64,000 nt of DNA, from IMG/VR virus record IMGVR_UViG_3300042691_015935, positions 20,401 to 84,400 of that record; one strand, given 5' to 3'. Shown piece after piece: positions 7,562 to 41,572 of this stretch. Each line of letters begins with the position of its first letter. The first letter of the stretch is position 1. The DNA comes from a virus. The notes under the pieces were generated by a model that was not told the DNA's origin, ran no database searches, and worked only from the letters and a program-made list of their open reading frames with translations. A program made the position numbers and the translations under genes.

Positions 7562-7726
7562 TTACATTAAAAAATATGCTATTAAAAATACCCACCCAGC
7601 TAAAGTATATGGTCTTCCTTCTGATTGTTGTTCTTTTGATTTAGGGAAAATACCACCTTGTTTAATCATTGCTATAATAAAGAAAACTAAAGCGGTTGCA
7701 TTTAGTAACATTTTGTAATTAGTCAT
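7562..7726 (-). CDS. Small membrane protein, 54 residues
   Basis: The ORF starts in TAATG overlap with the upstream nucleotidyltransferase stop and has a GAGGAGAT site. It has two hydrophobic segments (LLNATALVFFIIAMI and AGWVFLIAYFLM) around a polar loop, so it is a likely two-span membrane protein. Function unknown. Confidence 0.6.
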   Translation of the reverse strand: MTNYKMLLNATALVFFIIAMIKQGGIFPKSKEQQSEGRPYTLAGWVFLIAYFLM

Positions 7727-8709
7727 TATATCTCCTCTTTAATAACTTTTCTATATATATCTAAAATAATATGGTTTATTTCTATACTATCTGGTAAATT
7801 TGAATGTTGTTTAATTTCAAGTAGTTCTTTTAATCCTTTTTCTATTTCAGGTTGAACTATTGTTGTGAAATCTAATTCTCCTTTTTTAACCAATAATATA
7901 AAGTCTCTTTGTTCTTTTTCTAACGGAAAAGCTAAAGAACCTGTTGTCAATAATACCTTTCCTTGGTGTATAACACGTAAGGCATGACTGACAGCTTTCC
8001 AATCTACGCCTTGGTTCATTTTAGCTAATTTACTTCTTGTACCAAATTCATCGTACGCTTTTTGTAAAGAATTGATAACGTAATCAATCGTTGAAAACAT
8101 TGGATACTTTTTACCAATAACTTCAAAATGTTCGTCATATCCTTCATTTAAATCATTTTTAACTTTAGGAACTTGAACAATATGAACATATTCTAATTTA
8201 GTTAGTTCTAATAATTGATTTCTAAAATTAAATAACTTATTAGAATAAGGATAAGTTTCTTTATAATTCTTTAAAGTTTCAAGTACCTTCTCTACTGAAC
8301 CCATTCTAGTCCCACGAATACCGTATTTAGCTGCTTGTTGTTTAGCATATCCAATAAAACTAACTACATTCTTATGTACTAATTCATTTCTTTTTGAAAC
8401 AATCTCATCCCATAGTGGGTGTTTCTCTAGAATAAATTCATCGGGAGTAAACAATAATTCGATTGCTACTGTTTGTCCTTCTTTTAGCATGTTCATAAAC
8501 TTATCTAATGAAAATAATTCAGTGTCTATATCAGAGCTGTTATTTTTATTATTTGAATTATTAGTACTTTGATTAATACTTTTATTAAATTTACCTAGTA
8601 ATATGTCGTCAGCAGATGGTAAGTACACGCCTTTATAATCTTTGTCTGATTTCTCGGTATTTAGTCCAAATAAATGTGACCCAGCTATAGCTTTCATTAT
8701 TATTTTCAT
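7726..8709 (-). CDS. RlaP-like nucleotidyltransferase (DNA polymerase beta superfamily)
   Basis: 327 residues. The N-terminus shows the nucleotidyltransferase signature GSHLFGLNTEKSDKD at 10-24, with the GS and DxD pieces of the catalytic site. This matches predicted nucleotidyltransferases of the RlaP type (RNA ligase-associated polymerase-beta-like), found with RNA ligases in RNA-repair contexts. Downstream helices fit the family. The same arm of this genome encodes an RNA ligase, polynucleotide kinase-phosphatase and macro domain, so a role in adding nucleotides to damaged RNA is plausible but inferred. Confidence 0.75.
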   Translation of the reverse strand: MKIIMKAIAGSHLFGLNTEKSDKDYKGVYLPSADDILLGKFNKSINQSTNNSNNKNNSSDIDTELFSLDKFMNMLKEGQTVAIELLFTPDEFILEKHPLWDEIVSKRNELVHKNVVSFIGYAKQQAAKYGIRGTRMGSVEKVLETLKNYKETYPYSNKLFNFRNQLLELTKLEYVHIVQVPKVKNDLNEGYDEHFEVIGKKYPMFSTIDYVINSLQKAYDEFGTRSKLAKMNQGVDWKAVSHALRVIHQGKVLLTTGSLAFPLEKEQRDFILLVKKGELDFTTIVQPEIEKGLKELLEIKQHSNLPDSIEINHIILDIYRKVIKEEI

Positions 8710-13912: not shown

Positions 13913-15124
13913 TTAATGAAAGTCTGAGTTATCTTTATCTAAGTATGCTTCTGAAATCCATTTTAATGACTTCCTGTTGTTTGGACAGAACTTATCATTG
14001 TATGATTCAATAGATTTAATAACTACACCTTCTCTGATTTTTTGTTCTGGACAATATACTGAATCACCTTTAGTTAATTCATATACTTTTTCTTTATTAA
14101 AAGGACCTTCGTATAATACTGGAACAACATCAAATCCTCTTTCTTCTGCATACTGACGAACTTCTTTAGGACTTAACCATACGTGTTCACTGTTATCTAA
14201 TGTTTTTTTAACATCAAATAAAACAAAATGATGTCTGTCTTTAAATCCATAATCGTAATTCTTTTGGATTCCTTGACCAATTAGCTCACCATAAATAGTT
14301 TCACCTTCTTTAATCTTATCTTTAGCCTTAACACCTTTTAAAACATTACCATATACATCTTCACCATAGAAACCAGAGTATCCGACTCTGTTAGTAAGTT
14401 CTACGTTATTAGACCCATAACAGAACTCGTATTTAGGTAATAGACCTAGCTTTCCAGAAACGATTCTTTTTAGCATATTTAAGCTCGAAAGAAGAATGGT
14501 CTTAGTATCTCCTTTCCTTGTTTTAAGTTGATTTAAGCACCCAAAGAATTCGTTTAAAGACGGAATTACTGTTGGTAACATAGATGCTCTACAGTTACTT
14601 CCATGCAATTTTTCCTCAACTACAACTAACTCTCCTTCAGTGAATAGGTTTGGAAACCATTTTACGTTTTCTAGTCCGTTATATTTATGAAATAATGGGT
14701 TCTCTAGTGGTTTGTTTCTAGATGTTTTAAGTCTAGGAGTAAACTCAGGAGCAGGTGGTTCGTATTTAATAATACCTAACGATTCAGATAAATCATCCTC
14801 TAGTGAAAACTTAGATACATCAGTAAATTCTGATATTTCTTCTTTAGATATCAGCATACCCTGAGAAGCAAATCCTCTAATACGAATTTGTCTAACTCTT
14901 GAATTATGTAGCTTGATCTTACTTCCTTCTGGAAATAATTTAGATTCTAAGTTATTAGGTAATACTGAATCAATTGGAACGTAGATAATCTCATCTCCCA
15001 CAACGTATTTGTTTTTTGGAATTACCACATGAAATCCATATACGATTGCAATTTCTAATCGTTCAGCGTTTGAGTGAGGATATATCTCTAATATTTGAGT
15101 CAGTGGTGTTTTAAATAATGACAT
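13913..15124 (-). CDS. RNA ligase, Rnl5/DraRnl-like
   Basis: 403 residues. An N-terminal region of about 120 residues looks like an OB fold (ILEIYPHSNAERLEIAIVYG...), followed by a nucleotidyltransferase domain with motif I EEKLHGSN (nucleophile Lys172), motif III-like YGELIG, motif IV EGVVIKS and motif V KSLKWIS. This matches the Deinococcus-type RNA ligase, which seals 3'-OH/5'-phosphate RNA. Together with the kinase-phosphatase and macro domain genes upstream it would form a complete RNA healing and sealing set. Its mRNA has an unusual structured leader (15144-15231). Confidence 0.85.
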   Translation of the reverse strand: MSLFKTPLTQILEIYPHSNAERLEIAIVYGFHVVIPKNKYVVGDEIIYVPIDSVLPNNLESKLFPEGSKIKLHNSRVRQIRIRGFASQGMLISKEEISEFTDVSKFSLEDDLSESLGIIKYEPPAPEFTPRLKTSRNKPLENPLFHKYNGLENVKWFPNLFTEGELVVVEEKLHGSNCRASMLPTVIPSLNEFFGCLNQLKTRKGDTKTILLSSLNMLKRIVSGKLGLLPKYEFCYGSNNVELTNRVGYSGFYGEDVYGNVLKGVKAKDKIKEGETIYGELIGQGIQKNYDYGFKDRHHFVLFDVKKTLDNSEHVWLSPKEVRQYAEERGFDVVPVLYEGPFNKEKVYELTKGDSVYCPEQKIREGVVIKSIESYNDKFCPNNRKSLKWISEAYLDKDNSDFH

Positions 15125-15143
15125 AACCCTCCAGTTATAAAAT

Positions 15144-15231
15144 GAAGTTAGGTAGCGAGTTAAATACTGTCCGAAGTAACTTTAGACGCATTTTGGTTCG
15201 AATCCATAACTAACAGTCTGGACCTAACTTC
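15144..15231 (-). ncRNA. Structured 5' leader of the RNA ligase mRNA
   Basis: A perfect 10-bp closing stem (15222-15231 with 15144-15153; GAAGTTAGGT pairs ACCTAACTTC) encloses two hairpins: 15204-15209 with 15191-15196 (loop of 7), and 15180-15187 with 15169-15176. A short helix, 15213-15217 with 15166-15170, may join them. The first paired base, 15231, is exactly where transcription from the 15238-15266 promoter should start. The segment 15206-15211 can alternatively pair with 15133-15138 next to the GGAGGG site, which suggests translation control. Confidence 0.6.
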
Positions 15232-15237
15232 AAATTC

Positions 15238-15266
15238 ACTATATCACATTTTTTGATTTTTGTCAA
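15238..15266 (-). promoter_or_regulatory. Sigma70-type promoter for the RNA ligase operon
   Basis: Minus-strand TTGACA (15266-15261), 17-bp spacer, TATAGT (15243-15238), AGTTC extension before -35. Predicted start about base 15231, the first base of the structured leader. Confidence 0.85.
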
Positions 15267-15269
15267 GAA

Positions 15270-15731
15270 CTATTTCACGTAAATTAAAATTTCACTATCA
15301 CCTGTTACTTTATTGATTATTTCTTCAATCTTAGTCCAATCTCCTCCACCTAATCCACTGCCAATTTTAGGCATAGCTACAATCTTACCTTTATCCAAGT
15401 ACTTTCTTTTAATTTCATTCATACATTGTTCAATAGCATCATAGTCGATATATTGTTTTCCATCATATCCGTATTTATCCTGTGTGAAACAGTTTAGTAT
15501 TGTTAGTTTATCGGAAACTTTAACAGGTTGAACCATGCCTAGTAATAAGCCTGTTCCAAAGTTCAACAATTTGTAATGTTCACATAATCCGTGATAGTTT
15601 TCCTTCACAACGGGGTATTTTTCTAACATTGTTTTAGCTACACCTGAGCCAAACTTACTCTGACAGTTTACACCATGAGCGATTACTCCCTCTGTTACAT
15701 CAAATAAATCACCTTGTACGTATTTAATCAT
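15270..15731 (-). CDS. Macro domain protein (ADP-ribose binding/processing)
   Basis: 153 residues, a single macro domain: GDLFDVTEGVIAHGVNCQ at the N-terminus, FGSGVAKTMLEKYP, and MPKIGSGLGGGDW near residue 120, the ribose-binding loop. Such proteins hydrolyse ADP-ribose-1''-phosphate or remove ADP-ribose from acceptors. It overlaps the kinase-phosphatase gene by one base, placing it in an RNA-repair context, where it could process ADP-ribose-1''-phosphate. Alternatively it reverses ADP-ribosylation by host defence. Confidence 0.88.
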   Translation of the reverse strand: MIKYVQGDLFDVTEGVIAHGVNCQSKFGSGVAKTMLEKYPVVKENYHGLCEHYKLLNFGTGLLLGMVQPVKVSDKLTILNCFTQDKYGYDGKQYIDYDAIEQCMNEIKRKYLDKGKIVAMPKIGSGLGGGDWTKIEEIINKVTGDSEILIYVK

Positions 15732-16600
15732 TAGAAATCTCCTTTGGCTACTTGTAGTACTTTCAATCCTTTACTTCTTAACATGTCTACTACCTGTTGT
15801 CTATCATCTAGAGCAAAGAATATATTATACTTAGGTAGTATTTCGTATTCTAATAAAACTTCTTTAGTGATATTGTCTTGTCTAAAGTCTCCACTGTATC
15901 GCATAAATAATTCATCATAAGGTATATCATGTTTGTTTAACCATTCTTCTGTTTGTTTTCTGTAATCGTCTGGACGACCTGAACACAATACTATTTTCAT
16001 TCCTGTTTCTTTGTATGTTCTAAGTATATGAATTATTTCCATTATAGGTTTATCTTCTGGCATTGTACTAAAGAATAGTTTCCAATCTTTCTTTCCTTCT
16101 CCACGAACAAAGTTTAATCTATGGCTTAAATCCGCGATAGTACCATCAATATCGCAATATATTGCTTGTTCTTTATCTTTAAGTAATCCCTTTTCAGTAA
16201 TGATTATGTCAGCTTCTTCTGAACTAATAGGTTGAAACTTAGACAGGAAAGTATCAAGTGCAGACCTTGCTTCTTTATAACAGGTAATAGTTGGGTGATT
16301 TGTTCTTTGTTCCATTCTTCTTAGACATTCTTTTGTTTGAACAATAAAAGAAAAGATAGCTGTTTCATAACCGTGTTCCTTTGCAACAGAAAGGTATCTA
16401 TTTCGTTGTTCTTTACTAAAGTTCATACGATCTACAACAATCTTCTGTCCTGCTTCTATTGCGTCTTTAAACGCTTTTAAATGCCCATCTTTACCTTGAT
16501 CGTCTTGAGATATACGAACATATCCTGTTAACTCCAACTTAGAAGCAAATGTTGACTTACCAGAACCAGGAGGACCAACTAATACAATACAATGTTTCAT
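15731..16600 (-). CDS. Polynucleotide 5'-kinase/3'-phosphatase (T4 Pnkp-like)
   Basis: 289 residues in the T4 PseT order: N-terminal kinase with P-loop GPPGSGKST (9-17) and catalytic-type DRMNFS near 57, then a HAD phosphatase with CDIDGTIADLSHR (Asp150, Asp152) and LCSGRPDDYR. It would remove 3'-phosphate or 2',3'-cyclic phosphate and phosphorylate 5'-OH RNA ends, making them fit for RNA ligase. It is directly upstream of the macro domain and RNA ligase genes. Host anticodon nucleases and the phage's own hammerheads both create such ends. Confidence 0.92.
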   Translation of the reverse strand: MKHCIVLVGPPGSGKSTFASKLELTGYVRISQDDQGKDGHLKAFKDAIEAGQKIVVDRMNFSKEQRNRYLSVAKEHGYETAIFSFIVQTKECLRRMEQRTNHPTITCYKEARSALDTFLSKFQPISSEEADIIITEKGLLKDKEQAIYCDIDGTIADLSHRLNFVRGEGKKDWKLFFSTMPEDKPIMEIIHILRTYKETGMKIVLCSGRPDDYRKQTEEWLNKHDIPYDELFMRYSGDFRQDNITKEVLLEYEILPKYNIFFALDDRQQVVDMLRSKGLKVLQVAKGDF

Positions 16601-20646: not shown

Positions 20647-22131
20647 TTATGAAGCAGATAATCTTTTTCGAATATCATTTAAAGATTCTTCAATTAAAAA
20701 GTTACCATTTTCAAAAACTGTTTTCAATAAATTCTCTTTAGAGATATTAGAACTTGTATCATCGGAATATTCTAATACACCAGAATTATTTTTGAATACT
20801 GTCACTTTACCTAACGCTGAATTTTTTGTACCGTCGTCTGTCTTAGGTGCTTTGAATATTGCTTTCTCTGTTCCATTAATTGTAACAGATGTTGCTTTCA
20901 TTGCAAAACCTAAAGTGTCTCTTGTGATAAATTGATATGTGTATGAACCGATTCCTAGTACAACATTAGTAGAAGCGAATCCTTTTTGTTTTAATCTCTC
21001 ACAAATTTCTTTACATCTTTCAAGTGTAATCGAGTCACCGTAAATAGCTCCGATTTTAGGATTAAGTATTTTGTATCCTTGTGATGATACTGTTCCACCG
21101 AATGTTTCATATAATAATTCAATAACACCTTTGTTCTCAGGTGAACCTAGAGGAGCTTCAGGGTCTCCACATAGAATGTCAGCAGGGTCTCCACTATCAG
21201 GACGAACCACTACTTTATCTAATGAACCTGCTCCACCATCACGAGCTAGAATTGATTCTTTTAATGAAGGTAAAATGTTTGTTACAACATTAAATAAATC
21301 CCAAGTATCTGACACAATACTAACAATACCTGTTGGATATAGTTCTTCAATGAATCTTCTATATGTTTCTCGTTCGTCTTCATATCCTCCTGCACACATT
21401 ACTGAATGTTCGCTTGCTGGAACTGAACAACCAACTAATTCTTTAGTAACATCTGCATTGTAGTATTGTTCTGCATAATTAATTGCGGGTAATGTATCTG
21501 TTCCAACGAATGATAGTAGGTGTCCAACACCAGATCGTGCTGAGTCTTCAGGTCCACTCTGTCCTCTCATAGAGAAATCGTGTCCTTGAAATTCAACGCC
21601 AGCAGTAGAGCCTGTTGTCTCCAGTGCGTAATTATCTAATACTGAGCGGTAAGCTTTAGCAATACTTGCTGTTGTCGCTGGTTTCCATAGTAGTGATGAA
21701 AGAATAGTTTCAAGATAATTTGTTAACCAAAAGAATTCATCTTTAGTATTCTCGATTGTCATTACTGGAACTCGAAATGGTACTAACGTTCCTTCAGCTA
21801 ATGCTGTTACTTTTAACGGTAAATAACCTAAATCATGTAAGTCTTCTAAGTGTTTTGTTTCAACATTTGGATTAAATAAATAAGCAGATACTTGACGCTT
21901 GTATTCATTAATAATTTCTTCTTTCTGTTTACTAAAGAACTGTGAATTAAATAATTCGTTTAATTCTTTTAATGCACCTTGTGTTCCAAAAGCTACAACG
22001 TTCTCAATTCCGTTGGCATGTTTACCTGAACGTGGTGTCCATGTACTGTATACCTTTGATGTGTTCTTTGGATACTGTACTCTATGACTAAGCTTGTAAC
22101 CGTCACATGCTAATGTTGCAATTAAATTCAT
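20647..22131 (-). CDS. Nicotinamide phosphoribosyltransferase-like enzyme (NAMPT/NadV or Namat)
   Basis: 494 residues matching the whole NAMPT family: start LACDGYKLSHRVQYP, GVEFQGHDFSMRGQSG, GCSVPASEHSVM, IVSDTWDLFNVV, VVRPDSGDPADI and YGDSITLER. NAMPT joins nicotinamide to PRPP, making NMN for NAD salvage. Some phage relatives (Namat of the NARP1 pathway) instead use ADP-ribose pyrophosphate to rebuild NAD+ in one step. The PRPP-synthetase-like gene at 23631 is the expected partner in both cases. Confidence 0.93.
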   Translation of the reverse strand: MNLIATLACDGYKLSHRVQYPKNTSKVYSTWTPRSGKHANGIENVVAFGTQGALKELNELFNSQFFSKQKEEIINEYKRQVSAYLFNPNVETKHLEDLHDLGYLPLKVTALAEGTLVPFRVPVMTIENTKDEFFWLTNYLETILSSLLWKPATTASIAKAYRSVLDNYALETTGSTAGVEFQGHDFSMRGQSGPEDSARSGVGHLLSFVGTDTLPAINYAEQYYNADVTKELVGCSVPASEHSVMCAGGYEDERETYRRFIEELYPTGIVSIVSDTWDLFNVVTNILPSLKESILARDGGAGSLDKVVVRPDSGDPADILCGDPEAPLGSPENKGVIELLYETFGGTVSSQGYKILNPKIGAIYGDSITLERCKEICERLKQKGFASTNVVLGIGSYTYQFITRDTLGFAMKATSVTINGTEKAIFKAPKTDDGTKNSALGKVTVFKNNSGVLEYSDDTSSNISKENLLKTVFENGNFLIEESLNDIRKRLSAS

Positions 22132-22352
22132 TATTTATCTCCTTTGGTAAAATCTTTACCTGTTAATTTCTTTGACGCTTTACTAAAAAACGGAATACCA
22201 AATGCAACAATAGCACATATTATATGTACTGTAATACCTATTACTCTAAATTCTTCATGAGTCATAGGAGTTAGTATCAATAGTAGACCAAAGAAAAACA
22301 AACTACTAGCTATTGTTATTCCTAATTTTAGTTCTCTTTTAACTTCTTTCAT
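22131..22352 (-). CDS. Two-span membrane protein, 73 residues
   Basis: A basic start (MKEVKRELK), two hydrophobic helices (IASSLFFFGLLLILTP and IGITVHIICAIVAFGIPFF) and a basic tail. Overlaps the NAMPT-like gene by one base. Unknown. Confidence 0.6.
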   Translation of the reverse strand: MKEVKRELKLGITIASSLFFFGLLLILTPMTHEEFRVIGITVHIICAIVAFGIPFFSKASKKLTGKDFTKGDK

Positions 22353-22512
22353 TTTTCTCTTTTATTAATCTATTAAATCCTTTAAATAAAAGATACAATA
22401 AAGATACTATCCCTAGTATCGGGAGTTCGTTTGATTTATGGCTTAACATAAAAGGTAAGATAAAACCAAAGTACGCTCCTAAAAATAAAATTATAATAAA
22501 TAGTTTATTCAT
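22339..22512 (-). CDS. Two-span membrane protein, 57 residues
   Basis: Starts in the end of the upstream gene with GGAG 8 nt before the ATG, and ends 14 bp inside the next gene. Two hydrophobic helices (LFIIILFLGAYFGFILPFM and LPILGIVSLLYLLF) and a basic tail. It forms a tandem pair of small membrane proteins with the next gene. Confidence 0.6.
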   Translation of the reverse strand: MNKLFIIILFLGAYFGFILPFMLSHKSNELPILGIVSLLYLLFKGFNRLIKEKNERS

Positions 22513-22708
22513 TATGTTTACTCCAATGTTTTATATTATCTAAATACAATTTATAGTTTTGATTTAGTTCATAGACTATACCATTGTGTTTATTACTTAA
22601 TGATAATTTAACTTTAATATATCTATTGTTTACATCACGATAAGTTACTCTATGTATATGTACAAATAAGTCGCTCTTTTCGTTTGTATATGTTCCAGGA
22701 TATATCAT
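22505..22708 (-). CDS. Hypothetical protein, 67 residues
   Basis: Start at ATG 22708 with AAGGTG 6 nt upstream; the codon two positions earlier is a GTG inside the ribosome site. Beta-rich (HIHRVTYRDVNNRYIKVKL). Preceded by an RNA structure with a possible pseudoknot. Not recognised. Confidence 0.55.
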   Translation of the reverse strand: MIYPGTYTNEKSDLFVHIHRVTYRDVNNRYIKVKLSLSNKHNGIVYELNQNYKLYLDNIKHWSKHNE

Positions 22709-22725
22709 AATCACCTTTTGTTAGA

Positions 22726-22774
22726 TGACGATAGCTCGTCAACCCGACAACTCCTAGATGGTATGTCGCACCAT
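22726..22774 (-). ncRNA. Possible pseudoknot leader RNA
   Basis: On the minus transcript the hairpin ATGGT/ACCAT (22774-22770 with 22762-22758) has a loop containing CGACA, which can pair with TGTCG downstream (22749-22745). A second perfect hairpin TGACGA/TCGTCA (22741-22736 with 22731-22726, loop GCTA) follows, ending 13 nt before the AAGG of the next gene. This nested arrangement in a 71-nt gap suggests a regulatory RNA. No known riboswitch is recognised. Confidence 0.45.
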
Positions 22775-22779
22775 ATTAA

Positions 22780-23634
22780 TTACTTAATGTTAATAAAGGG
22801 AATAGCGTTACTTCCTGTCATAGTTGGAAGTCTTCCGTCCCAACGTTGGATAGCTTCGTACTGGATTAATTCAGATGTTAGTGTTTTTAATTTTAAAGCA
22901 TTAGACTTTGCCTCTGCTTCAGCTATTGCTAACATTGATTTAGCTTTACCTTCAGCTTCTGCAATTTGTTTTTTAGCTTGTGCTTCAGCTTCTCTTAGTT
23001 CGTTCTCTCTTTGTTGTGCTCTTTGTGTTGCTTCAATCTTAGAGTTAAGAGCAGATACAACGTTGTCTGGTAATCTAATAGAACCAATTAAATATACTTT
23101 CTCAATAATAATACCATGCGGTTTTAAACTCTCTCTAACTAATCCTTCAACCTTTAGAAATAAGTCTGTCTTACCAGAACCATAAACAGATTCAACAGTC
23201 ATTGTAGATGCTACAGTATTTAGTGCATCTCTTAAAGCGTTCTTTACTACAACAGCTTTTATTTCATCAATACCTTTCCTATACTTTTGGAATAGTTTGC
23301 TGATCTTAGAATCATCAACAGTGAATGTTACACCCATATCAATGTTACAAGATAGACCTTCTGACGTTTGAAAAGTAAAAGATTCATCTGTTTCAGAGTC
23401 TTCCATTTCGTCTCTCGTGTAGATTTTTGTTTGTTGGAAAGTAGGGAAGATGTATAGTTCCTCATTGATCCCAACCCAATATCTACCTACACCTAGTACT
23501 TCGTGGTCAACACCCTTACTACCGCCTAGTAGGTAAATCTTAACACCAACATTACCTGCTGGAACTTTAGAACAAGACGTTGTGAATAACGTCAGTAACA
23601 ATACAATAAAAAAACCCTTCAGAAAATTAATCAT
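22780..23634 (-). CDS. SPFH/band 7 (prohibitin-like) lipoprotein
   Basis: 284 residues. An N-terminal hydrophobic signal ending in the lipobox FTTSC anchors the protein; the SPFH domain follows (VPAGNVGVKIYLLGG ... GVGRYWVGINEELYIFP), then a long Ala/Glu-rich coiled coil (about 205-250). Such proteins form membrane scaffolds and, in phages, can counter membrane-linked defences or modulate host proteases (FtsH-HflKC). It lies between the PRPP-synthetase-like and NAMPT-like genes and overlaps the former by 4 bp. Function in this phage inferred. Confidence 0.85.
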   Translation of the reverse strand: MINFLKGFFIVLLLTLFTTSCSKVPAGNVGVKIYLLGGSKGVDHEVLGVGRYWVGINEELYIFPTFQQTKIYTRDEMEDSETDESFTFQTSEGLSCNIDMGVTFTVDDSKISKLFQKYRKGIDEIKAVVVKNALRDALNTVASTMTVESVYGSGKTDLFLKVEGLVRESLKPHGIIIEKVYLIGSIRLPDNVVSALNSKIEATQRAQQRENELREAEAQAKKQIAEAEGKAKSMLAIAEAEAKSNALKLKTLTSELIQYEAIQRWDGRLPTMTGSNAIPFINIK

Positions 23635-24398
23635 TCAACTTCTCCTTTGAAATTAAATACTCGTTTAATGCCTTCTTCAAATAATACAAGAGAACCTCTA
23701 GAATAAATACCATGTGTTGTGTATAGATATACTTCGGAAGCTCCCATTTTATATAACTGTTTAGCACATTGAATAAAGGTAGCTCCTCCATCACAAATGT
23801 CGTCCACTATTAAACACTTTTTATTTGTTATAGGATATAGTGAGTCGGCTTCTAATGAAAGAATCTTACCTGTTGATTGTTCTCTTACCTTGTTGAAATA
23901 AATACTAGGTATATTAGTTAATGAATTTAACTTACTATAACGAACACTAGCTCCTTTGTCTGGATAGATAAGTACATCTGTTCCAGTTAATAAAGTAACA
24001 GTTTGAATGTATTTGTAAGGTATTTCATTTATACAATTAGCTATACCATGTTTATCGGAATGAGCATCAATCAAATACACAGTACTAAAGTTAAGTGAAT
24101 TAATCAAATGAGCAAATGGGTGAATACCGAATGTCGAATCATTACTTACCTCCTTATCCTGTCTTCCGTATGGAAGATAGTTAATACGTAGTGTTCCTAG
24201 TTTTTCTGAAACAGAGCCAATCATAAATCGTAATTGAGCGATTGTTATAAGCTCTGACTCTTTATCAAAGTCCCATTCAATTACGTTATTAAACGTTATT
24301 TTCATTTTGTTATACACATCTTCTGGGAGTTTCCAGACTTGTGTACAAGTATCAGGGAATGTTGTTGGAGTTACGTTGTAACCGTTTAGTGTTATCAT
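23631..24398 (-). CDS. Ribose-phosphate pyrophosphokinase-like enzyme (Prs or Adps)
   Basis: 255 residues. Motifs: YLPYGRQDKE (active-site loop), LIDAHSDKHG (metal-binding), and the PRPP loop CLIVDDICDGGATF. It is shorter than bacterial Prs (about 315), as phage members often are. It would supply PRPP to the NAMPT-like enzyme at 20647, or, if it is an Adps, phosphorylate ADP-ribose to ADP-ribose pyrophosphate for NAD+ reconstitution (NARP1). Motifs alone cannot separate these. The pair spans only four intervening genes. Confidence 0.88.
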   Translation of the reverse strand: MITLNGYNVTPTTFPDTCTQVWKLPEDVYNKMKITFNNVIEWDFDKESELITIAQLRFMIGSVSEKLGTLRINYLPYGRQDKEVSNDSTFGIHPFAHLINSLNFSTVYLIDAHSDKHGIANCINEIPYKYIQTVTLLTGTDVLIYPDKGASVRYSKLNSLTNIPSIYFNKVREQSTGKILSLEADSLYPITNKKCLIVDDICDGGATFIQCAKQLYKMGASEVYLYTTHGIYSRGSLVLFEEGIKRVFNFKGEVE

Positions 24399-39079: not shown

Positions 39080-39394
39080 TTACACCTCCTGTTTACAGTC
39101 GGGACATACCCATATCATGAAGTTAGTTAACACTTTGTTATGATATTTTCTTGGGTGTGTACAGGTTGTTTGTTGTACTTGAGGGACGGACGTTGGTTCT
39201 TTAAACAGTTCATATAACTTATCAATTGTTTCAAGAAAAAATAAAAATTTTTCACCTACTTGTTTTGTTTTACTATTGTAGTGAATTCTCTGAACTTTAT
39301 ATATATTATTAACTTCTATAATTTCATAGATTGAATTATATAATTTGTTTTTATGAATAATTATATCCCCAACTTTAAACTTTGGCGTTGTCAT
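39080..39394 (-). CDS. SH3-like KxGD protein with C-terminal zinc ribbon
   Basis: 104 residues: MTTPKFKVGDIIIHKNK SH3-like part, then a Pro/Gln linker and CTHPRKYH ... WVCPDCKQEV, a one-ribbon zinc site. It is the longest cytoplasmic member of the family and lies just downstream of the type II hammerhead ribozyme, whose 3' product starts its mRNA. Confidence 0.62.
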   Translation of the reverse strand: MTTPKFKVGDIIIHKNKLYNSIYEIIEVNNIYKVQRIHYNSKTKQVGEKFLFFLETIDKLYELFKEPTSVPQVQQTTCTHPRKYHNKVLTNFMIWVCPDCKQEV

Positions 39395-39407
39395 TCAATC
39401 CTCCTAT

Positions 39408-39470
39408 GGACTCGTCAGGTTACACATAATGTAACGACGACCGACTAATTCTAGTCAGGTCGTTTCGTCC
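39408..39470 (-). ncRNA. Hammerhead ribozyme, type II (HHR-C)
   Basis: All core elements on the minus strand: GAAA (39466-39463), stem III 39462-39458 and 39456-39452 with 39438-39442 and 39443-39447 (one bulge), cleavage triplet GTC ending at 39436, stem I GTTACA/TGTAAC (39435-39430 with 39424-39419), CTGACGA (39418-39412) and stem II GTCC/GGAC (39411-39408 with 39470-39467), left open. Cleavage falls between 39436 and 39435. The next gene's AGGAGG starts 3 nt after stem II. Confidence 0.85.
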
Positions 39471-39545
39471 TTAATTATATTTAGATACCACTAGATGTAC
39501 TAAAGGTAAACAAATAAACACTACCCCTAATAATAAATCCTCCAC
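39471..39545 (-). CDS. Possible membrane microprotein, 24 residues
   Basis: GTG start with AGGA 5 nt upstream, hydrophobic (LLLGVVFICLPLVHLVV), stop directly abutting HHR-C. Too short for certainty. Confidence 0.35.
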   Translation of the reverse strand: MEDLLLGVVFICLPLVHLVVSKYN

Positions 39546-39547
39546 TA

Positions 39548-39871
39548 TTATCCTACCTTCTTATCCATATCTTGTGGATTAAATGCTTTGATTTCTTTTC
39601 TTGATAACTTATCATTGTTATCTTGAACGAATTGTTGGATTGTTGCTAGGTTCTCAATAAACTTTTCAAATTGTTGAACATACATATTGATTGGAAACCT
39701 ACCACCTAACCCATAGATAGTTAATCCACCACCTTTGTTAATCTCAACCCTTACAGTGTTACCCACTAGGTTGTTAAGAATCTTTAATTGTTCTTGTTGC
39801 TTCTTTAACTGCTCGATAAGAGCTTGTTTTTCTTCAAGTAATTGTTTCGCTGTTTTTGTTGCAGTTGTCAT
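39548..39871 (-). CDS. Coiled-coil protein, 107 residues
   Basis: N-terminal coiled coil (LLEEKQALIEQLKKQQEQLKI within 10-32), then a beta segment NTVRVEINKGGGLTIYGLGG and a helical end. AAAGGAG before the ATG. It is the gene between HHR-B and HHR-C, so its mRNA would be excised with 5'-OH and cyclic phosphate ends. Not recognised. Confidence 0.58.
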   Translation of the reverse strand: MTTATKTAKQLLEEKQALIEQLKKQQEQLKILNNLVGNTVRVEINKGGGLTIYGLGGRFPINMYVQQFEKFIENLATIQQFVQDNNDKLSRKEIKAFNPQDMDKKVG

Positions 39872-39913: not shown

Positions 39914-39973
39914 TAAGCTGTTTCGGTGTGACATTACACCTCGTCAGTCAGACTTATAGCCTGAGACAGCTTA
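39914..39973 (-). ncRNA. Hammerhead ribozyme, type III (HHR-B)
   Basis: Minus strand: stem III TAAGCTGT/ACAGCTTA, 8 bp (39973-39966 with 39921-39914); cleavage after C39965 (GTC); stem I TCAGGC/GTCTGA (39964-39959 with 39953-39948); CTGACGA (39947-39941); stem II GGTGT/ACACC (39940-39936 with 39929-39925); GAAA (39924-39921). Every invariant core position is present. It lies in the leader of the gene at 39871. Confidence 0.9.
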
Positions 39974-40254
39974 GGGAATAGTGTTTGCGATCACTACTCC
40001 CACTACTGTATGTTATCAGCTCGACGTTATCCTCCCATAGGTACATTAATCCTATGGTTCTTATATCGAACCGACTAGCTAGACTCTTCACTGTTTTACA
40101 GCTTATACCATATAGGTAGTCTAGATGCAAAGACGTTGCTTCTCGGTAATGTAGTTCTCGCTACAAAACTCCACAACACCCAACGGGTTATGTCTAATAA
40201 CAGTTACTAGCCGTCTAGCCAAGTGTTAAGGTACACCTGCCCTTTTCTAGTAAC
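39974..40254 (-). ncRNA. Hairpin-rich non-coding RNA between two hammerheads
   Basis: No gene fits this 281-nt stretch, but it contains at least eight inverted repeats: 40203-40210/40247-40254 (8 bp), 40178-40181/40185-40188, 40150-40154/40161-40165, 40127-40130/40136-40139, 40079-40085/40118-40124, 40035-40041/40051-40057 (7 bp), 40056-40060/40068-40072 and 39974-39983/39992-40001. The last abuts stem III of HHR-B. It would be the 3' part of the RNA released by HHR-A and HHR-B. Function unknown. Confidence 0.6.
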
Positions 40255-40266
40255 CTATAGTTTATA

Positions 40267-40562: not shown

Positions 40563-40623
40563 CTCCTATTTCGGGTGACAACACCCATCATCAGTAGGGA
40601 CTCAATTATCCCTAGATAGGGAG
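40563..40623 (-). ncRNA. Hammerhead ribozyme, type III (HHR-A)
   Basis: Minus strand: stem III CCTAT/ATAGG (40620-40616 with 40569-40565); cleavage after C40615; stem I TAGGGA/TCCCTA (40614-40609 with 40600-40595); CTGATGA (40594-40588); stem II GGGTG/CACCC with TTGT loop (40586-40582 with 40577-40573); GAAA (40572-40569). The next gene's ribosome site is part of stem III. A separate GCGAGT/ACTCGC hairpin (40623-40628/40634-40639) lies just upstream. Confidence 0.88.
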
Positions 40624-40868: not shown

Positions 40869-41572
40869 GTGATTCTCCTAGTTTAAGTATATATTTAATT
40901 ATATATACAAGAATTTAATTTTAATCTCGACTTGTCAGGTCGATGCCGAGCTATCATTCAAGCCCCATGCCAACTCATTTTCTGAACAAAATCAAGCACT
41001 TAGCTGTGGTTCACAATGACACCAGTATCGAAAAGTCACCAAAAACAGAGCCAAAATGCCACCAAAGCCAGTATCAAAACAACACCATCTCAACAAATTC
41101 AAGCACTTAGAGCTAAGTACCTGAAATCTCGTAGCATGGTATAATAAGAACCCGTGCGTGTGTATTAATACCCGTATGCGTGTGCATATGCCCCTGCGTG
41201 TGTTTTTATATACCTGCGTGAGCGTACGTGCGAGCGTGTGCGTGCATGGGTGTGCAGGTGCGTGTAGGCGTGAGCGTGTGTGTGCATGATGCGTAGGCGT
41301 GTGTGCGAGCGTGTGCGTGCGTATGTGTGCTAGGGGGGGGGTACACCCTTCGTGGTTCAGGGTGACATTGACCGAGTACATTCACTCACTTTACCCTCTC
41401 AACTATAGAAACCAGTAACCCTTCACCCTACTACTCATTCACAACCTTTATAACAACTCTTAGTATAATAGCCTCTAAAACGAACAAAAACAGGGTTATT
41501 TGATACTTTAGTATATAGACCTAATAGTTAGTATTAAAGCTTCTAAAACCTCTTTAAAAGGATATTAAGCTT
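40869..41572. other. Divergent non-coding region, candidate origin/control region
   Basis: About 700 bp separate the leftward and rightward arms. Contents: an AT-rich segment (40880-40925) where leftward promoters are likely; repeated words at 40985-41120 (TCAAGCACTTAG twice, CCAGTATC twice, ACTTAGAGCTAAGT palindrome); a GT/GC alternating tract to 41341; and an AT-rich segment with TATAAT at 41464-41469 facing the rightward genes. The only ORF (40992-41381) is low-complexity and not credible. Confidence 0.6.
41153..41341. repeat. GT/GC alternating purine-pyrimidine tract ending in G9
   Basis: About 190 bp of irregular GTGCGTGTG-type repeats in an otherwise AT-rich genome, with G confined to the plus strand and C to the minus, ending in nine Gs (41333-41341). 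Alternating purine-pyrimidine favours Z-DNA; strand asymmetry favours R-loop or unwinding structures. Likely part of an origin or replication/transcription switch. Confidence 0.8.

Follow-up and report, generated by a model that had tools for sequence, protein, structure and literature searches.

A predicted and conserved type II hammerhead ribozyme between two genes of a phage early transcript

The sequence analysed here (the window, 64 kb) comprises bases 20401–84400 of an 84.4-kb uncultured virus record, which is that of a tailed phage, as judged by its terminase, portal, DNA polymerase and helicase genes. The large genes lie on the minus strand from 581 to 41381, and on the plus strand from 41573 onward. 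A putative hammerhead ribozyme, HHR-C, lies close to the beginning of the minus-strand gene block, together with two further hammerheads, HHR-A and HHR-B, and several small genes (Table 1). Just upstream of the early operon, 41200–41340 contains a long run of alternating GTGCGT/ACGCAC-like repeats, which are also present in the relative described below. Scans for sigma-70 promoters and terminators around HHR-C gave no usable excess over shuffled sequences, and a BLASTN search of the HHR-C region against annotated phages did not return any match.

Table 1. Coordinates of HHR-C, its parts and the neighbouring features in the window
Feature	Position	Strand	Basis or remark
HHR-A, type III hammerhead, predicted cleavage 40615/40614	40563..40622	-	RF00008 25.4 bits, E 0.0007
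HHR-B, type III hammerhead, predicted cleavage 39965/39964	39915..39972	-	RF00008 35.6 bits, cut-off 48.5
107-aa gene between HHR-B and HHR-C	39548..39871	-	63% identity with the relative's copy
Microprotein ORF, 24 aa, hydrophobic, GTG start	39471..39545	-	TAA stop abuts stem II
HHR-C, whole predicted type II hammerhead ribozyme	39408..39470	-	sequence, fold, structural scan, covariance model
HHR-C stem II, 5' strand GGAC	39467..39470	-	pairs with 39408–39411
HHR-C core G12 A13 A14	39464..39466	-	sequence
HHR-C stem III hairpin, A15.1 to U16.1, one bulged U (39457)	39437..39463	-	fold; pairing kept in relative
HHR-C C17, predicted cleavage 39436/39435	39436..39436	-	GUC triplet
HHR-C stem I hairpin, 7 bp, terminal U.G closes triloop UAU	39419..39435	-	fold; 2 two-sided compensatory changes
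HHR-C core CUGACGA (C3 to A9)	39412..39418	-	sequence
HHR-C stem II, 3' strand GUCC	39408..39411	-	pairs with GGAC strand
Shine-Dalgarno AGGAGG of next gene	39400..39405	-	sequence
104-aa gene downstream of HHR-C	39080..39394	-	ATG at 39394

The minus-strand sequence of HHR-C, from 39470 to 39408, is GGACGAAACGACCUGACUAGAAUUAGUCGGUCGUCGUUACAUUAUGUGUAACCUGACGAGUCC. In the RNA, GGAC and GAA are followed by the stem III hairpin, in which A15.1 and U16.1 enclose the paired strands CGACC and GGUCG, the bulged U, the paired strands GACUA and UAGUC and a GAAU loop. The C at the predicted cleavage site is followed by the stem I hairpin (GUUACAU and GUGUAAC around UAU), CUGACGA and GUCC. All of the defining positions of the hammerhead core are present (C3UGANGA9, G12A13A14, the pair A15.1–U16.1, and an H17 that is not G). 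The fold and the model alignment both give three helices, with a 4-bp stem II open and stems I and III closed, and because the open stem is stem II, HHR-C is assigned to type II. An earlier note, made from the sequence alone, had described a hammerhead of this layout with a bulge in stem III, as the sequence and fold confirm, and had placed cleavage where the GUC triplet predicts it. Its boundaries are exact, but it did not state that the element is on the minus strand. Its type II assignment is supported by the core, by the score of a covariance model and by compensatory changes in one relative.

Isolated HHR-C folds to exactly the hammerhead structure (−22.2 kcal/mol, z −3.16), with 1 of 200 shuffles equally stable. 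The mean pair probability of stem II was 0.97 for HHR-C alone, 0.32 with 20 nt of downstream sequence and 0.01 in a 213-nt context; in the longer context of the window, the thermodynamic model, which leaves out tertiary contacts and co-transcriptional folding, favours pairings other than the hammerhead. Sequestration of the Shine-Dalgarno sequence by the stem II strand GUCC was predicted in the window but not in the relative, and was dropped.

For a ribozyme of predicted activity, these competing folds would suit an inactive relic or a chance look-alike, but both the rarity of such structures in shuffled DNA and the conservation of the core make this reading very improbable. A strict structural scan of the window found one type II and one type III hammerhead, against a chance rate of 0.05 type II hammerheads per 64 kb in 20 first-order shuffles of the window, and all core positions are intact in both the window and its relative despite diverged stems. 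The core heptamer CUGANGA alone occurs at chance level in the window (27 sites, 26.7 expected). An independent covariance model was built from 60 aligned type II hammerheads of other phage contigs, with the window and its relative excluded. It scored HHR-C at 53.4 bits (E 1.4e-11) and the relative's copy at 60.3 bits, and HHR-C was its only full-length match in the 84.4-kb record, with no second type II hammerhead. Covariation within the 60-member family was 0.634, compared with 0.134 after shuffling and at most 0.119 in slid registers.

The syntenic relative is IMGVR_UViG_3300042691_014730 (L002), an uncultured phage with an 89% identical terminase, and it contains all three hammerheads in the same order, A-B-C, around the same genes. 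The earlier note had proposed an alignment of relatives for covariation in stems I and III. All 20 compared base pairs of HHR-C are kept in this one relative, with three two-sided compensatory changes (two of them in stem I), one one-sided change and none broken, and the pairing of stem III is retained. With only two sequences, this covariation is statistically modest (62 of 500 shuffles equalled it), but slid registers gave no two-sided change. Searches for further relatives using the 104-aa downstream protein found none, and those using the 94-aa protein encoded between HHR-A and HHR-B found the L002 contig only. The terminase retrieved L002 to L006, and the hammerheads described here were found in L002 only (L003, L005 and L006 are fragments or partial).

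On the upstream side of HHR-C, the relative has a 23-aa counterpart of the microprotein ORF in the same place, with the motif FxxLPL. On the downstream side, the position of the 104-aa gene is occupied in the relative by a hydrophobic 27-aa ORF (L002:2962–3045, minus strand) that begins immediately past HHR-C, and the homologue of the 104-aa gene lies further on; the downstream neighbour was thus replaced and the ribozyme stayed. With a different gene following HHR-C in each phage, the ribozyme is unlikely to serve the control of any one downstream gene.

A search of the whole window at Rfam gathering level gave no match, and HHR-C was not matched by RF02276 (Hammerhead_II, gathering cut-off 37 bits) even at E 10; the clan match retained for it was a truncated RF00008 hit of 18.1 bits. 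A textbook phage type II hammerhead also scored below the RF02276 cut-off, at 25.8 bits, so the miss is probably due more to the model than to the RNA. Contigs L007, L013, L027 and L090, which contain type II hammerheads, likewise had no gathering-level Rfam match, and public annotation may miss many phage type II hammerheads.

Comparison of HHR-C with the type II hammerheads of RF02276 and of Perreault et al. 2011 (PMC3088659) shows the same core, the same open stem II and the same closed stems I and III. The settings are also alike, as the published elements occur in phages and prophages, with several hammerheads around single genes. Clusters of hammerheads flank genes in prophages, and such clusters cleaved in vitro and in E. 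coli; a role in mRNA segmentation was suggested for them (PMC3088659). It was not until 2011 that natural type II hammerheads were recognised. HHR-C belongs to this known kind, and occurs in a syntenic pair of phages with compensatory changes.

HHR-C differs from the published consensus, which has a short stem II and a pseudoknot between loop I and the 3' tail (PMC3088659), in that its stem II is 4 bp long and its stem I has 7 bp and a triloop closed by a U.G pair. The pseudoknot is common but not universal in type II hammerheads (PMC3088659). In HHR-C, loop I and the 3' tail could form 4 bp including one G-U (UUAU with AUAG), and the frequency of such pairing in its subgroup is 20%, compared with 21% in the null. 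Regulation through a loop I pseudoknot with the Shine-Dalgarno tail was accordingly rejected, such pairing being at chance level. The stem I of 7 bp with a U.G pair on the triloop is common to HHR-C and its relative, and is found in 63 of the 148 elements of a set sharing the GGAC stem II. A set with a GGC stem II is enriched in loop I–3' tail pseudoknots (56% compared with 40%; for five or more pairs, 32% compared with 16%). From these sequence comparisons, two tertiary solutions seem to exist, with HHR-C in the one without a supported pseudoknot.

These sets come from surveys of IMG/VR, in which a GGAC/GUCC stem II alone was found in at least 120 stretches, with up to five copies per stretch. 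Among the distinct GGAC matches listed, including that of the window, 148 of 152 have both other stems, compared with 1.8% after shuffling. A second stem II, GGC/GCC, was also found in at least 120 stretches, and bacterial and archaeal genomes gave 49 stretches, in which about half of the distinct matches have all three stems; the surveys are samples, and their counts cannot rank the prevalence of hammerhead types. The description of type II as rare and the less frequent topology in the earlier note is contradicted by the report that type II hammerheads are very common in bacteria and as frequent there as types I and III (PMC3088659), and by these more than 140 distinct examples with a single stem II sequence. 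In each of the phage contigs L007, L013, L058, L316 and L339, 4 to 6 type II hammerheads are clustered in a few kb.

At HHR-C, the TAA stop (39473–39471) of the 24-codon ORF directly adjoins stem II, and the Shine-Dalgarno sequence of the next gene begins 2 nt past it. To examine how usual this arrangement is, we defined a snug context by an upstream stop no more than 10 nt away and a downstream start, with its Shine-Dalgarno sequence, no more than 40 nt away; genes were called by simple ORF rules. Such a context was found for 81 of the 135 listed elements of the GGAC set, compared with 24 of 2700 random positions and 1 of 135 on the antisense strand; with the window included, the counts are 81 of 136 and 28 of 2720. 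A similar result was obtained for the listed GGC set, in which 58 of 128 elements were snug, compared with 17 of 2560 in the null and 1 of 128 on the antisense strand; the effect was weaker in the genome set (7 of 23, compared with 5 of 460 in the null). Snug contexts were found for 18 of 87 type I and 1 of 23 type III hammerheads. By these crude gene calls, the flanking genes were co-directional with the type II ribozyme 76 times, and both opposed to it 3 times. The abutment pointed out in the earlier note is therefore real, but it is how phage type II hammerheads are usually placed and not a peculiarity of HHR-C. From the survey, many phage gene junctions seem to include a type II hammerhead as a regular component, placed on the coding strand and flanked by stop and Shine-Dalgarno sequences. 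We conclude from these sequence data that the predicted HHR-C is a real, conserved type II hammerhead in a setting ordinary for its kind.

Stem II pairs the 5' end of the ribozyme, which touches the stop, with its 3' end, close to the Shine-Dalgarno sequence. This would permit a translation-gated switch, in which a terminating or initiating ribosome would melt stem II and HHR-C would cleave only when both are absent. Among phage GGAC-type elements, 60% have a stop no more than 3 nt from stem II, and 70% have a start with a Shine-Dalgarno sequence no more than 30 nt away. In 144 of 148 elements of the GGAC set, stem II is preceded by an A, which often belongs to the stop codon, as it does in the window (UAA followed by GGAC) and its relative. 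If phage type II hammerheads in general were gated in this way, cleavage would report a ribosome-free junction and couple mRNA segmentation to translation. However, once the ribozyme is removed, the median spacing between the flanking genes is 30 nt, which resembles that of ordinary tandem gaps (median 42 nt), so compact phage packing suffices to explain the abutment. Type I elements found no more than 100 nt from a stop on their own strand are likewise close to it, and we regard the switch as unlikely. For the same reason, the different frequencies of stop abutment (60% for type II, 21% for type I and 4% for type III) are not claimed as specific to type II.

The two neighbouring hammerheads are also conserved in the relative. 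In HHR-A, an extra U separates CUGAUGA from stem II. This U is kept in the relative, where stem II shows compensatory change (GGGUG/CACCC to GAGUC/GACUC); judging from the two sequences, the inserted U next to the core looks tolerated or preferred. Between the 94-aa ORF and HHR-B, about 290 nt (39973–40266, minus strand) are also conserved in the relative. The fold of this region has 52 predicted pairs, 15 of which are kept via two-sided changes between the two sequences, and it has no Rfam family match. It is a candidate structured RNA, the 3' end of which would be made by HHR-B.

Taken with the conserved synteny, the position of HHR-C suggests that it probably acts in cis, cutting the minus-strand early polycistronic transcript between two genes and so segmenting it. 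Cleavage would occur after the C at 39436, during or shortly after transcription. The upstream product would be an mRNA that terminates in the stem III hairpin and a C bearing a 2',3'-cyclic phosphate. The downstream product would open with the stem I hairpin, carrying a 5'-OH, some 40 nt ahead of the start codon; because of the type II layout, each new end would carry a complete hairpin. A hairpin with a 5'-OH is expected to protect against decay that depends on a 5'-monophosphate, and a terminal hairpin against 3' exonucleases. The transcript would in this way be split into units with protected ends and separate fates. Cuts at HHR-A and HHR-B would release a 650-nt RNA (40614–39965) with the 94-aa ORF and the candidate structured RNA, and cuts at HHR-B and HHR-C a 529-nt mRNA (39964–39436) with the 107-aa ORF and the 24-aa microprotein. 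HHR-C would thus be the third of three hammerheads that free two small RNAs from the leader of a long operon. General segmentation fits better than single-gene control, because the A-B-C order is conserved and the gene after HHR-C is not. The idea could be tested at many loci together.

In the early mRNA of phage T7, RNase III sites cut the polycistronic transcript between genes, giving hairpin-ended mRNAs. HHR-C resembles these sites in the intergenic cutting of an early transcript and in the hairpin ends. It is not of the same kind, as it would cleave itself without a host enzyme, leaving a 2',3'-cyclic phosphate and a 5'-OH.

Such ends might instead be healed, with the segments between hammerheads circularised or re-ligated by a phage polynucleotide kinase/phosphatase and RNA ligase. 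Genes for both kinds of enzyme, a PNKP-like kinase/phosphatase (15731–16600) and an RNA ligase (13913–15124), are present in the same record, and the three hammerheads bracket two segments. However, RNA repair enzymes are common in large phages, where they are usually tied to tRNA repair. Perreault et al. found neither circular nor spliced products when they sought them in their own systems (PMC3088659). We consider healing the least probable of these readings. The two repair genes adjoin a macro-domain protein gene (13913–16600, minus strand), and the enzymes could heal hammerhead-type ends. Genes for a nicotinamide phosphoribosyltransferase, a PRPP synthetase and a nucleotidyltransferase, also on the minus strand (20647–24398 and 7726–8709), might represent an NAD+ rebuilding route against NAD-depleting defences.
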